Part shown: positions 554 to 8,844 of the stretch, piece by piece
How positions within the stretch are numbered: position 1 is the first letter of the stretch
Layout of the letters: each line of letters opens with the position of its first letter
Assembly: GCF_004217095.1 (NCBI RefSeq)
Contig: NZ_SHKO01000003.1
Coordinates: 1 to 64,000, forward strand
DNA from: Advenella incenata
GTDB taxonomy: Bacteria > Pseudomonadota > Gammaproteobacteria > Burkholderiales > Burkholderiaceae_B
Reading direction: 5' to 3'
Length of the DNA stretch: 64,000 bases
The notes under the pieces: generated by a model
What the model was told of the DNA's origin: nothing
Databases searched by the model: none
What the model saw: only the letters and a program-made list of their open reading frames with translations
Program-made: the position numbers and the translations under genes

Positions 554-1588
554 TTATTTGTTTGCAGAAATGGCGGTAGGCATCTTTGGCGGATGACTCG
601 TGGTGCCGCGGACAATCAGCTCGATATCCAGGCACACGGACACTGGCTGTACATCCTTTTCTATCCATTCCAGTATCGAATGCGCACATTCGATACCCAG
701 TTCATAAGTAGGCAATTGCACCGTGGTCAAGCCTGGAGGCAGGTGCGACACAATGGGTAGATTATCGCAGCCTACAATAGAAAGGTCTCGGGGCAATTGA
801 ACCCCGTGTTTCTGCGCTTCGAACATGCATCCCATTGCGAGTACATCATTGCCGCAAAAAATGGCCGTGGGAGGCACGGGCAATTGCATCAGGCGTGCCC
901 AGCCAGTGCGGCCACCGGCAAACCCAAAGGGCTGTTCGATCAGATTGCGTTTGTCAAATGCAATGTCGTTGCGGCGCAAGGTGTCGATGAATCCTTCAGC
1001 ACGTTGTCGCGCCCGGTCATTGTGGCGTGTGTAGCCCGAAATCATGCCAAATTGCCTGTGCCCCAGCGCAATGAGATGTTCGGCGGCCAATTGACCAATA
1101 AGGCGATTATCGAAAGCCACCGAAGGATAGCTTTCGTGAGCGGCCCAAGCGACCAGCAATGGGGTCCGACTGCGCCGCACCAGATCCCATGTTGTTTCGG
1201 CGTGATGTGTGCCAACCAGCACCAGCGCATCTATTCGCGTTTCCAGTAAGGCACGGACCTGCTGTGCTTCGGTTTCAAGATTATATTCATGAGCTGCGAT
1301 GAGTAGCTGGTAGCCGTGCGCTGCCAGCGTCGTTTGCAGGCCTTGGACCGCCAGCGCAAATATCGAATTATCCAAAGTGGGAACGACCATACCAACTGTG
1401 TGACCATGGCCTGAGGCCAGTGCGCGGGCCGACCCATCCATAAAGTAGTTCAATTCATCAATGGCGCGCTGGACCCGTTCGCGGGTAGCGGGCTTGACTG
1501 AGTCTGGATTCGATAGGGTACGGGATACAGTGGCAACTGACACTCCTGCCAAGGATGCAACGTCAGCGATGCGCGCCCGGTGTTTCAT
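554..1588 (-). CDS. LacI-family transcriptional repressor (HpsR-like by context)
   Basis: The 344-residue protein has the LacI-family layout. An N-terminal helix-turn-helix lies at about residues 6-27 (IADVASLAGVSVATVSRTLS), a hinge helix follows near residue 50, and a periplasmic-binding-protein-like effector domain starts near residue 65 (VGMVVPTLDNSIFA). It is transcribed away from the dehydrogenase/transporter genes that begin at 1830. Two similar 18-bp palindromes with a central CG, typical of LacI-family operators, lie in the 241-bp divergent region. Inference: it represses that operon and is released by the substrate or a metabolite. A LacI-type regulator, HpsR, occupies this role in the Cupriavidus DHPS cluster. 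Family assignment is firm; the effector is unknown. Confidence 0.9.
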   Translation of the reverse strand: MKHRARIADVASLAGVSVATVSRTLSNPDSVKPATRERVQRAIDELNYFMDGSARALASGHGHTVGMVVPTLDNSIFALAVQGLQTTLAAHGYQLLIAAHEYNLETEAQQVRALLETRIDALVLVGTHHAETTWDLVRRSRTPLLVAWAAHESYPSVAFDNRLIGQLAAEHLIALGHRQFGMISGYTRHNDRARQRAEGFIDTLRRNDIAFDKRNLIEQPFGFAGGRTGWARLMQLPVPPTAIFCGNDVLAMGCMFEAQKHGVQLPRDLSIVGCDNLPIVSHLPPGLTTVQLPTYELGIECAHSILEWIEKDVQPVSVCLDIELIVRGTTSHPPKMPTAISANK

Positions 1589-1693
1589 GGCTGGCCTTTG
1601 TCTTCGTTCATAAACAGAATGTATTATAAGCCGCTGCCGGGTAGAAATTTATTGTTTATACATTGACGCACTTGCAATCCTTCACTACAATAA

Positions 1694-1711
1694 AATGTAA
1701 GCGCATACATT
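1694..1711. promoter_or_regulatory. putative LacI-family operator O1
   Basis: AATGTAAGCGCATACATT is an 18-bp inverted repeat with one mismatch between the 9-bp arms and the GC/CG centre usual for LacI-family operators. It lies between the divergent repressor and dehydrogenase genes. A 16-of-18 match lies 106 bp downstream (1800-1817). Confidence 0.65.
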
Positions 1712-1799
1712 ATATAGATCAATAGCGCGAAAACTTATTCGAGACAATAGATAATATTCAACAAATACAATGCATTATATTAATTAAAGTATTCTCTTT

Positions 1800-1817
1800 A
1801 ATGAAAGCGAATACATT
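1800..1817. promoter_or_regulatory. putative LacI-family operator O2
   Basis: AATGAAAGCGAATACATT matches O1 at 16 of 18 positions. It ends two bases before the AGGA ribosome binding site (1820-1823) of the HisD-family gene, so bound repressor would sit over the 5' leader. Centre-to-centre distance to O1 is 106 bp, close to ten helical turns, which would suit looping by a multimeric repressor. Confidence 0.65.
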
Positions 1818-1826
1818 TTAGGATGA

Positions 1827-3143
<1,317 letters not shown>

Positions 3144-3163
3144 GCGACGGACAGGAGGCAATG

Positions 3164-3931
3164 ATGAAAAATCGAGCACTGTTCGATCTTTCCGGCAGGA
3201 CAGCGCTGGTGACCGGAGGCAACTCCGGCATTGGTGCTGCCATTGCCAGAGGGCTGGGACTGGCAGGCGCACAGGTGGTATTGGTGGCCCGTCGCGAACA
3301 GCCGTTGCGCGACCAGGTGGCGCTACTGGCTGAAGATGGCATAAAAGCGCGCTATTGCATCTGTGATCTGGCTGATCACTCGGCGCTGCAGGCTTGCGCC
3401 AGTGAGGCAGTTGGCAGCGCCGGGGCGATCGATATTCTGGTCAATGCAGCGGGGGTCAATCTGCGCCAGCCGTTTGAGCAGGTGGATCACGAATCCTGGC
3501 GCCTGCAGATGGAGCTTCATCTGGCGGCGCCATTTTTCTTAACCCAGGCGCTGGCACCGGCGATGAAAAAAAATGGCTGGGGACGCATCATCAACATTGC
3601 GTCGTTGCAGTCCTACCGCGCGTTTGCCCATAGCGCCCCGTATGGTGCGGCAAAAGGCGGCGTGGGGCAACTGACGCGTGCCATCGCCCAGGAGTGGTCG
3701 CCACATGGCATTACCTGCAATGCGATCGGGCCGGGTTTTTTTCCAACGGCGCTGACCGCGCCGGTATTTGGCGATACAAGCCTGAGCCAGCATCATGCTG
3801 CGCAAACGTGTATTGGTCGCAATGGTCAGTTGGAAGATTTACATGGTGTTGCCGTGTTTCTGGCCAGCCAGGCATCAAGCTATATCACCGGGCAGGTAAT
3901 CATGGTCGACGGAGGTTACACCGCGAAGTAG
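3164..3931 (+). CDS. short-chain dehydrogenase/reductase of the hps-like operon
   Basis: A classical SDR of 255 residues. The cofactor motif is near the N-terminus (TGGNSGIG), NAAG follows, and the catalytic Tyr and Lys lie in [12 protein letters not shown] 3164 is preferred because AGGAGG (3153-3158) lies five bases upstream; an ATG at 3161 is also possible. The gene begins 20 bases after the HisD-family gene and is clearly cotranscribed with it. In the Cupriavidus DHPS pathway two further dehydrogenases (HpsO and HpsP) interconvert the DHPS enantiomers by oxidation and reduction at C2. This SDR and the zinc dehydrogenase at 5431 are the candidates for those roles; which is which I cannot tell. 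SDR family is certain, substrate inferred. Confidence 0.85.
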
Positions 3932-4010
3932 GCAGTATTCTTGCGGCAGAATTTTGCCGTTCCTCAATATATATAAAAACAGAATAAAAGCGCTATGGAG
4001 CAGAGACAGC

Positions 4011-5378
4011 ATGAACAATTCAGAACATGGACAGGCCCGCACTAATCTACACCGGGCGACGATATCAAGCCTGTTTGGGTCGATTATCGAGTGGTACGAT
4101 TTTTTCCTGTACGGTGTGGTAGCCGGACTGGTGTTTGACAAGCTTTATTTTCCCGGGGAAAACGAGTTTATATCCACCATGCTGGCGTACGGAACGTTCG
4201 CGCTTGGATTCGTTGCCAGGCCCCTGGGCGGCATCATATTCGGGCATTTCGGCGATACGGTTGGTCGCAAGAAGATGCTGATGCTCACGCTACTGTTAAT
4301 GGGCGGTGCCACAGTCGCGATTGGCTTTATTCCAACCTATGCCCAGATCGGTATCTGGGCGCCGATTCTATTGCTGTTCTTTCGCATCGTGCAGGGAATT
4401 GGCCTGGGCGGTGAATGGGGCGGGGCGGTATTGATGACCTACGAATCAGCCCCGCAAGCGCGACGTGGATTTTTCAGCAGCATTCCCCAGACCGGCATGT
4501 CGCTGGGGTTGGTGCTCGCCTCTGGTGTGGTGGGGTTGTTGTCATGGCAACTGAGCAACGAAGCTTTTCTATCCTGGGGCTGGCGCGTTGCTTTTCTGTT
4601 AAGCGGCCTGATGGCGCTGGTCGGTGGTTATATACGCAATCATGTGTCCGAGACGCCTGAATTTGAAGCAATGAAACAAAAGGCCACTGCAGCAAAAAGC
4701 ACTGAAAAACCTGTGCTGCCACTGGTTGATACCTTGCGCCGATACCCTCGCATGATTCTGGCATGCATGGGCGCGCGCATGATCGACGGCGTATTCTTTA
4801 ATGTGTTTGGTGTCTATTCACTTAACTATCTGACGCGTGAACTGGATTTGCCGCGTACACATGCACTGCTGGGCGTGATGATGAGTGCAGTATTGATGAC
4901 GTGCTTTATTCCGTTCTGGGGAGCGGTTGCCGATCGCGTCGGTAAGGCTCGCGTATACGGACTGGGCGCACTGTTTGCATCGCTGTCAGCGTTTCCTGCG
5001 TTCTATGTGATGCAGACATTCTCCGACAACATCTATCTGGTCTGGCTTGCCATTATTATTCCGTTTGGCATATTTCATGCTGCGGTGTTTGGCACCATGT
5101 CGTCATTTTTCTCATCATGCTTTGATGCGAAGGTGCGCTATACCGCGATTTCATTTGTGTATCAGCTGGCAGGCGTTGTGGCGGGTGGTCTTACGCCCAT
5201 TATTGCTACCGTGCTGACCGATATCAATGGCGGCGATCCGTGGTTGTTGTGCCTGTATGTTCTGGCGGCCGGTCTGCTTAGTGTCGCATGCACTCGGTGG
5301 ATTGCCCGGCATGTGCCGGATCAGGTCACATATGCACGCCGTGAACCGGCAGGCGCCGCGCAAACGTCAATATCTTGA
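4011..5378 (+). CDS. MFS transporter, metabolite:H+ symporter (MHS) type, probable uptake carrier of the hps-like operon
   Basis: The 455-residue membrane protein has the MHS-subfamily signature: SSLFGSIIEWYDFFLYG at the start of the first helix, GRKKMLML after the second, and RIVQGIGLGGEWGG in the fourth to fifth helices. Relatives import organic acids and osmolytes such as shikimate, 2-oxoglutarate and proline/betaine. ATG 4011 is chosen because GGAG lies ten bases upstream and the protein then starts like its family; an in-frame start at 3954 would add non-homologous residues. It sits between the SDR and zinc-dehydrogenase genes, so it most likely imports the operon's substrate (compare HpsU in Cupriavidus). 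Confidence 0.88.
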   Translation: MNNSEHGQARTNLHRATISSLFGSIIEWYDFFLYGVVAGLVFDKLYFPGENEFISTMLAYGTFALGFVARPLGGIIFGHFGDTVGRKKMLMLTLLLMGGATVAIGFIPTYAQIGIWAPILLLFFRIVQGIGLGGEWGGAVLMTYESAPQARRGFFSSIPQTGMSLGLVLASGVVGLLSWQLSNEAFLSWGWRVAFLLSGLMALVGGYIRNHVSETPEFEAMKQKATAAKSTEKPVLPLVDTLRRYPRMILACMGARMIDGVFFNVFGVYSLNYLTRELDLPRTHALLGVMMSAVLMTCFIPFWGAVADRVGKARVYGLGALFASLSAFPAFYVMQTFSDNIYLVWLAIIIPFGIFHAAVFGTMSSFFSSCFDAKVRYTAISFVYQLAGVVAGGLTPIIATVLTDINGGDPWLLCLYVLAAGLLSVACTRWIARHVPDQVTYARREPAGAAQTSIS

Positions 5379-5388
5379 TTCGGTACCG

Positions 5389-5408
5389 GATCCGGCAGGC
5401 GCCGGATC
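5389..5408. repeat. intercistronic inverted repeat between transporter and dehydrogenase genes
   Basis: GATCCGGC and GCCGGATC form an 8-bp stem around a four-base loop. There is no U tract, so a transcript-stabilising or processing hairpin is more likely than a terminator. The 13-mer CCGGCAGGCGCCG inside it also occurs 46 bp upstream at 5346-5358. Confidence 0.45.
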
Positions 5409-5430
5409 TGCACACAAGGAGTTTTATCAA

Positions 5431-6435
5431 ATGAAAGCACTGGTTTATACCGCGCCCAACCAAATGGCGCTACAAGAGCGTCCCCTGCCCGAATTGCACG
5501 CGGGAGAAGTGGTCCTGCGTATCGAAGCCGCAGGCATTTGCGGATCTGATATGCACGCCTATCATGGACACGATCCCAGACGCAAGCCGGGCCTGGTTCT
5601 AGGGCATGAGCTGGCTGCCATCGTGGCAGAAAGCGCAACAGATGCAATCAAAGTTGGCCAGAGGGTGACGGTCAATCCGCTGATCACCTGCGGGGTTTGC
5701 CAATATTGCTTGCAGGGCAGAGACAATTTATGCAGTAATCGTGGCATGGTAGGAATGTCGCGGGCCGGTGCGTTTGCGCAATTTATGTCGGTGCCTGGCA
5801 AATCGGTGGTCCCCGTTCCTGCCGATATGAAGCCTGTGGTGGCGGCCTTGACTGAACCGGCTGCCACGGTGCTGCATGCATTGAACTTGGCAATGGAAAA
5901 GATGCATCGTCCTTTGCCGGAGGGCCGCGTGCTGGTGATAGGAGGCGGGGCAATCGGACTGCTGACGGCAATTTTACTGCGCGCATATGGCTGCAAACAG
6001 GTGGACCTGGCAGAAACCAATGCATTGCGACGGACATCGGCCGAGCAACATGCCGGGTGCGTGGCCATCGACCCGATGGCGACAACGCCTGAGCAGGATT
6101 GCTACGATCTGGTTGTGGATGCGGTTGGGGCAAAACCCACACGCAATACGGCGCTCAACAGTGTGCGACCAGGCGGCACGATATTGCATATCGGCTTGCA
6201 GGACTGGAGCAGCGAAATTGATATGCGCAAGCTGACCCTTGCAGAAATCACCTTGCTGGGAACCTATACCTATACGATGGCAGACATGTACGCCACCGTC
6301 AATGCCTTGCACAATGGAACCTTTGGGGACCTTTCCTGGGTAGAGACGCGTTCCCTTGATGAGGGTGTGACTGCATTTACCGAACTGGATCGGGGGAACA
6401 TTGCTTCGGGCAAAGTAGTATTGCTGCCGCAATGA
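5431..6435 (+). CDS. zinc-dependent medium-chain alcohol/polyol dehydrogenase
   Basis: The 334-residue MDR-family enzyme shows the catalytic zinc elements GICGSD and GHE, and a structural zinc loop with four cysteines (CGVCQYCLQGRDNLC). The Rossmann motif GGGAIG is followed by a typical sorbitol/threonine-dehydrogenase-like C-terminal half. ATG 5431 has AAGGAG ten bases upstream. A longer in-frame start would run through the end of the transporter gene and is rejected. It is the last gene of the hps-like operon. Inference: it oxidises or reduces the secondary alcohol of the imported substrate together with the SDR at 3164. Confidence 0.87.
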   Translation: MKALVYTAPNQMALQERPLPELHAGEVVLRIEAAGICGSDMHAYHGHDPRRKPGLVLGHELAAIVAESATDAIKVGQRVTVNPLITCGVCQYCLQGRDNLCSNRGMVGMSRAGAFAQFMSVPGKSVVPVPADMKPVVAALTEPAATVLHALNLAMEKMHRPLPEGRVLVIGGGAIGLLTAILLRAYGCKQVDLAETNALRRTSAEQHAGCVAIDPMATTPEQDCYDLVVDAVGAKPTRNTALNSVRPGGTILHIGLQDWSSEIDMRKLTLAEITLLGTYTYTMADMYATVNALHNGTFGDLSWVETRSLDEGVTAFTELDRGNIASGKVVLLPQ

Positions 6436-6642: not shown

Positions 6643-8844
6643 CTAGAACTCCATTTCTGCCGACAGTAGTACGGTGCGCGGCGCGGCGGCCGTTGCGACG
6701 GTAAGCCGTGAGCTGCTCGATAGCCAGTATTTCTTGTTAAAGACGTTTTCGACGCTGGCACGCAATGTGAGCGGGCGGCCCTGGAAGGTCGTGCGATAAC
6801 GTGCACTCAGGTCATAGCGTGTCCACGATGGCAGTGTGAGGGTGTTTTCGGCATTATAGGGTGTTGCTGCGGTGTGAATGGCGCGTCCGCCCACGCTCAA
6901 GCCGGGTACCCACGGCAAGTCCCAATCAGCTGCCAGGTTGAACGTGCGCTTGGGCACACCATTGGCCTGGTTGCCCTGATTGACGCCACCTGCAGTGCGA
7001 CGCAGTTTGGCATTATAAAAAGTGGCACTGGCCATAACGCGCAGACCATCGGTCACTTCACCGACAGCCGACAATTCCACTCCGCGATTACGCTGCTCGC
7101 CATCGTAACTGTAGATATTGGTGTCCGGGTCGGTAATCGCGTTTGGACGATCTACCTGGAAAACCGAGACCGTGGTCATGACGCGACCCCAGTCGACTTT
7201 GACGCCGGCTTCGTACTGCTTGGACTTATAAGGTGCAAACACTTCGCCGGCATTGGCTGCATCGATGGGAGCCGTGCTACCCGTGCTCAGGCCTGATGTA
7301 AAGTTACCGTATATCGACACGTTGTCCAGCGGGCGTATAACAATACCGAAAAGCGGTGATACCGCGCTTTCATTGTACGAGGAGGTGACTGCGCCAGCGA
7401 GGTTGAAATTTTCCGACTTCACCTGTTGCCTGCGCAGGCCGCCGGTAACCAGGATGCGGTCGTTGGCAAACGACAGGGTGTCGGTCAGGGAAATGCTGGA
7501 GAGCTGGGTTTCCGAATTCTTGCTCGGCGACTGGCGATCGCCGGTCATTGGAATCAGCGGCACCGGATCGTAGATATTGGAGTCGATCTTTTGACTCAAT
7601 GGCGCTGACAAGTAGAAGCTTCCCGCTTCTGTTTTGAGAATAGAGCCGGACAGGGTGACCAGGTGGTTCACACCAAATGTACTGAATTTTGCGCGCGCGC
7701 CGATCTCGGCCGTTTTGTTGCGTGCGTAGGCGTCATACCACGAATTGATAACCCGCAAATTACCCAAATCGTCCACTGCATCGGTCGCACGCGCAGAAGG
7801 GAAATCCTGTTCGCTGGCGCCGGAGTGGTAGCCTGCCGCCGCATAGACCATGAGTCGGTCGGAGATATCGTATTCCAATCGTGAGGCGATGGTCGAGTCG
7901 CGAATCGTCAGGTCAGCACCTGAATAGATGGCACGATGGCCCGAAGGGGCTGATGGCACGTTTGCTGTATCAGGATGGAACCCGGTCTGCGCACGAAAGT
8001 TGTCAACGTTCTCACGTTGTGCATACGTGTCCAGGGACCACCGCAGTTTGGCCGAGCGGTAGTCCAGTGACAGCGCGCCAAGGGCAAATTTCTGGCGACC
8101 GTCGTCCAGACTTGTTTTGCCATTGCGGTATACGCCGTTAAAGCGGATGCCCCATTGCTTGTCATCGCCAAAGCGGCGTCCCATATCCAGGTGCGCGCCA
8201 AAAATTGATTTGCTTTCGTACGTTGTGGTGAGGCGGGTCAACGGTTCATCTTCGGCGCGCTTGGTAACGATATTGATGTTTCCGCCAATGCTGCCAGTGG
8301 GGCTGATGCCGTACATCAGTGTGCCCGGCCCTTTGAGAACTTCAACCCGTTCCATCATGGCTGTGGGCATGCGGTTGGATGAGGCCAGGCCATATAGTCC
8401 GTTAAAGCCGACATCGCCGCTTTCAACGTTGAAGCCACGGATCTGGAAATCTTCGCTGAAACTGCCCGTTGACGTCATCACGCGTACAGATGCTTCGTTG
8501 ACGACTACGTCAGCCAAGGTACGGGCTTGCTGGTCATTCAGAAATTGCGATGTGTAATTGGTGGTGCTAAAGGGCGTATCCATGACATCAGACGAACCCA
8601 GCACGCCCAGACCGCCACCGCGCGCGACCTGGCCGCCGGCGTAGGCAGTGGGAAGCGCATCGTCGGCGCCGCTTGCCATGATAGGGGTCAATTGCACAAC
8701 GCTGCTTTGAGCGTAAGCGGCCAACGGCAATCCCAGTACAGAAAGACTAAGGGTATTGATCACAAGCCGGTTCATGAGCGAGGGCGAGTTCGGCGACGTG
8801 GTTTCGCAGGCGGGAGCGAGTCTCGCAGGCTGAATGGTTCTCAT
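6643..8844 (-). CDS. TonB-dependent ferric-siderophore receptor
   Basis: A 733-residue outer-membrane receptor. A signal peptide (MNRLVINTLSLSVLGLPLAA) is followed by a TonB-box-like stretch, a plug domain with FQIRGFNVESGD and ERVEVLKGPGTLMYG, and a 22-strand barrel that ends in the aromatic terminal residue Phe. This is the siderophore-receptor branch (FhuE/FpvA/FcuA-like), not the heme branch. Two starts compete. ATG 8844 has AAGG seven bases upstream and adds 23 residues before the hydrophobic core. ATG 8775 gives a normal-length signal peptide but no visible ribosome binding site. A near-perfect Fur box lies about 50 bp upstream of ATG 8844, so iron repression is expected. The siderophore is not predictable. 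Confidence 0.92.
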   Translation of the reverse strand: MRTIQPARLAPACETTSPNSPSLMNRLVINTLSLSVLGLPLAAYAQSSVVQLTPIMASGADDALPTAYAGGQVARGGGLGVLGSSDVMDTPFSTTNYTSQFLNDQQARTLADVVVNEASVRVMTSTGSFSEDFQIRGFNVESGDVGFNGLYGLASSNRMPTAMMERVEVLKGPGTLMYGISPTGSIGGNINIVTKRAEDEPLTRLTTTYESKSIFGAHLDMGRRFGDDKQWGIRFNGVYRNGKTSLDDGRQKFALGALSLDYRSAKLRWSLDTYAQRENVDNFRAQTGFHPDTANVPSAPSGHRAIYSGADLTIRDSTIASRLEYDISDRLMVYAAAGYHSGASEQDFPSARATDAVDDLGNLRVINSWYDAYARNKTAEIGARAKFSTFGVNHLVTLSGSILKTEAGSFYLSAPLSQKIDSNIYDPVPLIPMTGDRQSPSKNSETQLSSISLTDTLSFANDRILVTGGLRRQQVKSENFNLAGAVTSSYNESAVSPLFGIVIRPLDNVSIYGNFTSGLSTGSTAPIDAANAGEVFAPYKSKQYEAGVKVDWGRVMTTVSVFQVDRPNAITDPDTNIYSYDGEQRNRGVELSAVGEVTDGLRVMASATFYNAKLRRTAGGVNQGNQANGVPKRTFNLAADWDLPWVPGLSVGGRAIHTAATPYNAENTLTLPSWTRYDLSARYRTTFQGRPLTLRASVENVFNKKYWLSSSSRLTVATAAAPRTVLLSAEMEF

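Follow-up and report, generated by a model that had tools for sequence, protein, structure and literature searches.

The 64 kb stretch at the start of contig C3 (NZ_SHKO01000003.1) of Advenella incenata, hereafter the window, opens with five genes resembling those for the use of 2,3-dihydroxypropane-1-sulfonate (DHPS) in Cupriavidus pinatubonensis. The initial annotation recognized a LacI regulator, a HisD-family enzyme, an SDR, an MFS carrier and a zinc dehydrogenase here, and all five were confirmed, the coordinates from the open reading frames (ORFs) and the families by Pfam. It also described the cluster as being without desulfonation genes. The question is whether the sulfolactate is desulfonated by enzymes encoded elsewhere, or whether the cluster serves another compound. 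It is very likely that the cluster is a standard hpsRNOUP operon for DHPS use and that SuyAB, whose genes are on a different contig of this genome (4.92 Mb, 10 contigs), carries out the desulfonation.

The hpsRNOUP gene set

hpsR, hpsN, hpsO, hpsU and hpsP (positions 554-6435 of the window) are all intact ORFs, and hpsR is divergent from hpsN-hpsO-hpsU-hpsP (Table 1). The genes for HpsN, the SDR HpsO and the zinc dehydrogenase HpsP are close together, as is characteristic of an hpsRNOUP operon. The hpsRNOUPsuyAB cluster of C. pinatubonensis JMP134 was compared via strain HN-2 (NZ_CP080769.1), where gene order and orientation are identical for all five genes. The identity is 77% for HpsN and 51 to 67% for the other four. 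Because both the gene set and the gene order are common to C. pinatubonensis, chance is ruled out as an issue. The HN-2 record names hpsN, hpsO, an MFS transporter and a "galactitol-1-phosphate 5-dehydrogenase"; two UxaA-family genes come next. LacI-type operators are also present in its hpsR-hpsN gap.

In C. pinatubonensis, suyAB is located right after hpsP, whereas in the window no suyAB is found 3' of hpsP. The next gene encodes a TonB-dependent receptor (6643-8844, minus strand). On the hpsR side, the sequence ends at base 1 of contig C3. The contig start near the end of hpsR is probably an assembly break at an rRNA operon. In two congeners, an rRNA operon starts ~325 bases (G009, L113:8314-13966) and ~396 bases (G007, L115:11339-14541) past the end of hpsR. 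The Rfam search of positions 1-1000 of the window showed no match.

Table 1. Features of the hps locus (window positions) and of the suy locus (contig C2). Names give predicted functions; identities are to proteins of C. pinatubonensis HN-2.
Feature	Position	Strand	Basis
hpsR, LacI-family regulator, 344 aa	554..1588	-	Pfam; 51% identity to the LacI gene adjoining hpsN
LacI-type operator-like site 1	1696..1709		one mismatch to the pattern; immediately after promoter-like pair 1663-1691
LacI-type operator-like site 2	1802..1815		one mismatch to the pattern; just ahead of the hpsN start
hpsN, sulfopropanediol (R-DHPS) 3-dehydrogenase, 437 aa	1830..3143	+	match to PDB 8v35, GRYAH motif, residues, tree
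hpsO, SDR-family DHPS 2-dehydrogenase, 256 aa	3161..3931	+	Pfam; 64% identity to HpsO
hpsU, MFS carrier, 455 aa	4011..5378	+	Pfam; 67% identity to the carrier
hpsP, zinc-type dehydrogenase, 334 aa	5431..6435	+	Pfam; 63% identity to the homologue
suyB, 391 aa	C2:412325-413500	-	third PF04295 place; 85% identity to SuyB
suyA, 93 aa ORF	C2:413560-413841		position beside suyB; 74% identity to SuyA

Identity of the HisD-family protein and its substrate

The best match to HpsN among solved structures was C. pinatubonensis HpsN (CpHpsN; PDB 8v35) with 773 bits. The four top matches, from 773 to 498 bits, are named sulfopropanediol 3-dehydrogenase or (R)-DHPS dehydrogenase, and histidinol dehydrogenases scored 243 bits or less. 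The nearest named HpsN, among the best 80 of 532 relatives, is from Advenella sp. FME57 (97% identity).

HpsN proteins are reported to carry a G-R-Y-A/S-H motif that is not present in HisD, and its His126 touches the sulfonate; His126 and Lys353 are both described as sulfonate contacts in CpHpsN (PMC11382572). The window HpsN carries GRYAH including His126. It also keeps Q248, H251, E318, H319, D352, K353, H359 and H411, the zinc and catalytic residues that were checked (numbering of the paper, equal to the ORF numbering minus one). The characterized CpHpsN (PDB 8v35, 8v36, 8v37 and 9cp7-9cp9) has the same motif, zinc ligands, catalytic residues and length of 437. Judged from the 77% identity to the HN-2 protein, the two proteins differ at roughly 20 to 25% of their positions.

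The initial annotation proposed a tree of HisD, HpsN and their paralogues as a check. In a tree of 53 rows (24 with the HpsN motif, 20 of a class with the GGKYP motif and 9 HisD), each class is on its own side of one branch, with support of 97/92, 99/100 and 100/100, respectively. The protein from 1830-3143 is grouped with the HpsN-motif rows, apart from HisD, and is within a set of 16 rows with support of 100/99. The tree carries a long-branch warning for the outlying HpsN rows L149, L152, L153 and L154, all of which were kept in. The match to 8v35, the identities and gene order shared with C. pinatubonensis, the motif, the residues and the tree strongly support the hps assignment, and the HisD-family protein is assigned by its sequence as HpsN, the R-DHPS 3-dehydrogenase.

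The NCBIfam model TIGR00069 (hisD) scores the window HpsN at 436 bits, above its cut-off of 243.8, as would be expected if histidine biosynthesis relied on this gene for a second histidinol dehydrogenase. Another HisD is, however, already present at C1:0.70 Mb, among genes which look by eye like hisG, hisB and hisH. The identity of the window protein to eight HisD proteins of relatives is only 34-40%, their motif is different, and they are separated from it in the tree. Neither a HisD-type motif nor a his-operon context was found for the window protein in its motif, its tree position or its neighboring genes. A second histidinol dehydrogenase is thus extremely improbable.

The initial annotation also raised a different C3/C4 hydroxy compound as the substrate; in one form of this idea, a non-sulfonated diol or polyol would be oxidized by the same dehydrogenase logic. 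Trios of HisD-family, SDR and zinc dehydrogenase proteins are generic, and the same genome holds a related class which lacks the sulfonate-contacting His. Against this idea, the window HpsN keeps both His126 and Lys353 and is close to CpHpsN, and HpsN is accompanied by SuyB in 11 of 11 genomes (see below). Neither histidinol nor glycerol-1-phosphate is reported to be a substrate on which CpHpsN is active (PMC11382572). A substrate other than DHPS is therefore unlikely on sequence grounds, and a non-sulfonated diol or polyol in particular has very little probability.

The related class is encoded in Advenella at L099:9729-14689 (G000:C1:1.777-1.782 Mb), with homologues L121-L139, and is ~45% identical to HpsN. 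The motif is GGKYP(L/M) in 19 of the 20 rows and GGKFP in one. There is no equivalent of His126, Lys353 is kept, and the class forms one group in the tree (99/100). At an identity of at least 63%, it was observed in 21 of 101 genomes. In Advenella its neighbors are an SDR, a LacI regulator, TctC and an HpaI-type aldolase; within flanks of ~1.5 kb, 13 of 20 loci have an SDR homologue (two of them weak) and 10 of 20 have the LacI. A literature search with HisD-like phrases returned nothing beyond one Fusarium genome paper. The GGKYP class is a more open lead than the hps cluster.

Location of suyAB and co-occurrence with hpsN

The PF04295 profile found three places in the genome. At two of them the protein is long and includes a SAF domain, like the altronate/galactarate enzymes. 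The third is suyB, and suyA is beside it, so that the pair spans G000:C2:412325-413841, on a contig other than that of hps. The references for both were the UxaA-family pair directly after hpsP in HN-2. SuyAB is named at this place in JMP134 (PMC11382572). The nearest solved relative of the Advenella SuyB is a galactarate dehydratase, with only 129 bits. Downstream of suyAB, a TctC receptor gene is followed by one for a D-2-hydroxyacid dehydrogenase, which from its position is probably SlcC-like, and a GntR regulator is divergent.

The description "without desulfonation genes" thus holds for the neighborhood, where none follows hpsP. It does not hold for the whole genome, since suyAB and xsc were both found. 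The suggestion that sulfolactate is desulfonated elsewhere fits with suyAB on another contig, and the seeming absence of these genes is, as far as the genome sequence tells, a matter of location. Among the genes proposed for a search (suyAB, comC, slcC and xsc), suyAB, the SlcC-like gene and a true Xsc were found. Four Ldh_2 (ComC-family) proteins are present, none of which was assigned as ComC.

The co-occurrence was analyzed in 150 related genomes, with E-values of at most 1e-150 for HpsN and 1e-120 for SuyB. HpsN was present in 11 and SuyB in 44 of them. SuyB was found in all 11 genomes with HpsN, versus 33 of 139 without it (one-sided p of 5e-7, uncorrected for kinship). Two genomes (G042 and G049) have HpsN-motif proteins below the HpsN cut-off, and both have SuyB. 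At the cut-offs used, two genomes of this genus, G002 and G008, have SuyB but not HpsN, which indicates that the suy module is an independent unit.

In 3 of the 11 genomes, both genes are on one contig, 3.24 Mb (G006), 0.75 Mb (G007) and 31 kb (G030) apart. In G006, suyAB is on neither side of hps (L112). In the other eight, hpsN and suyB do not share a contig, and in several cases (the window's own, G005, G036, G073 and G143) the contig stops only a few kb from hpsN. Because of these contig ends, those assemblies alone leave adjacency possible. In G007, suyB reads as two overlapping ORFs (L116:7089-8263), which reflects either an error in sequencing or a genuine interruption of the gene. G009 has a second hpsN (L005:8679-11314; 79% identity), which is accompanied by a separate hpsR-like gene and operator but lacks both hpsO and hpsP in the surrounding 10 kb; a complete hpsRNOUP (L113) is present in G009 as well.

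Gene neighbors were counted for the 38 loci with full 10 kb flanks among the best 80 of 532 HpsN relatives, the other 42 being left out. Presence was scored at thresholds of our own choice (35-60% identity, >60% of the length). hpsO and hpsP were each observed at 37 loci, hpsR at 34, suyA at 16, suyB at 15 and hpsU at 7. As 23 of the 38 have no suyB in these flanks, it is common for hps loci to be without an adjoining suyAB. A published survey likewise describes sulfolyases as not always beside hpsNOP: it gives 104 adjacent sulfolyases (58 SuyB, 34 CuyA and 12 Xsc) for 272 HpsN, the remainder having been sought by BLASTp (PMC11382572). That a sulfolyase may be apart from hps is therefore already published, and the Advenella cluster adds a further case to a known pathway.

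The module that is apart in Advenella occurs joined elsewhere. On the plasmid p420573 of Paracoccus seriniphilus (NZ_CP067132.1; L156), hpsNOP, GntR, two UxaA genes, TctC, a TTT permease and a hydroxyacid dehydrogenase are in one stretch, with the hps and suy modules contiguous. The identity to Advenella is 59% for HpsN, 53% for HpsO, 45% for HpsP, 66% for SuyB, 51% for SuyA and 54% for the SlcC-like protein. A TRAP transporter is present where Advenella has the MFS carrier.

Some observations weigh against a standard operon completed by a distant SuyAB, in addition to the hisD score and the true Xsc. An hpsU of this kind was found in only the 7 full-flank loci mentioned above, and the match of the Advenella HpsU to the metabolite/H+ symporter family falls below the cut-off of that family. 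The GntR and TctC of P. seriniphilus are only 33% and 28% identical to those of Advenella. The assignment of suyA depends on the position and the 74% identity, since the SAF search did not report it and it gave no Pfam match at E 0.001; in the absence of any Pfam match, the negative SAF result itself says little. PF00174 is found at seven places in the genome, and none was assigned to the sulfite step.

Regulation, a possible Xsc route and the proposed pathway

The hpsR-hpsN gap of 241 bases contains two near-palindromic sites, each one mismatch from TGNAANCGNTTNCA, which we take to be the LacI-type consensus. In the whole window there are four sites at this mismatch level, and two sites in the gap were obtained in 0 of 2000 first-order Markov simulations. 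For relatives, the scan covered the 17 of 80 loci with an adjacent divergent hpsR (>35% identity, at most 600 bases from hpsN). Each of them carries one or more sites with at most one mismatch, and 16 have a perfect site. Site 1 comes immediately behind a promoter-like pair, which fits repression, although the promoter scan was near chance overall (8 found versus 6.2 expected). Near suyA, no perfect operator match was found in L097, L098, L099, L110, L111, L114 and L116. Joint control of hps and suyAB by HpsR is thus not supported.

A true Xsc (1076 bits) is encoded at C2:529512-531254, and a second route is possible. In this route HpsNOP would oxidize DHPS, and sulfolactate would pass via sulfopyruvate and sulfoacetaldehyde to Xsc or be excreted, with SuyAB serving only external sulfolactate. 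The four Ldh_2 proteins, the separate regulator of suyAB and the 33 SuyB genomes without HpsN are compatible with it. However, the best ComE-type match reached only 154 bits versus a cut-off of 221.5, and no ComD search was made. This sulfopyruvate-decarboxylase-beta-like protein (C5:118980-119516; L110) adjoins an aldehyde-dehydrogenase-like gene.

Xsc itself is in a taurine-type gene group (C2:520-539 kb; L098:799-19947) with a taurine-type ABC transporter, MocR-like and IclR regulators, a Pta-like protein, a GMC oxidoreductase and an MFS carrier. The carrier is ~61% identical to C. pinatubonensis HpsU. The group presumably serves the use of taurine and isethionate. Advenella mimigardefordensis is described as having been isolated for its use of organic sulfur compounds, taurine among them (PMC5373536). 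The product of HpsN from R-DHPS is reported to be R-sulfolactate (PMC11382572), so that ComC should not be needed. With the presence of SuyB in all 11 HpsN genomes, the Xsc/ComDE branch is not preferred, and diversion of sulfolactate to Xsc or its excretion is improbable.

In the preferred pathway through SuyAB, the catalytic steps, substrate, inducer, repression and transport would all be as in the characterized relatives. HpsU would take up DHPS, and HpsO and HpsP would interconvert S- and R-DHPS. HpsN with NAD+ would convert R-DHPS to R-sulfolactate in a four-electron oxidation, and HpsR would control the operon via the two operators. SuyAB accepts the R form of sulfolactate and would here split R-sulfolactate into pyruvate and sulfite.

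More tentatively, Advenella and its kin may have two separately regulated modules. HpsR would open the route from DHPS to sulfolactate, while GntR would open a shared suyAB-TctC-SlcC-like module which also serves sulfolactate from outside. If so, the two modules would let the cell oxidize DHPS and export or import sulfolactate whether or not desulfonation takes place. A search in the titles and abstract starts of a limited literature collection found nothing joining Advenella with hps or suy.

When a sulfolyase is missing from an hps locus, a search of the whole genome should come before any proposal of a new pathway. DHPS dehydrogenases are masked by the automatic label hisD (TIGR00069). DHPS is a plant- and algae-derived sulfur compound, and from its gene content this Advenella-like betaproteobacterium is likely to be a DHPS degrader through SuyAB, which also has a true Xsc.

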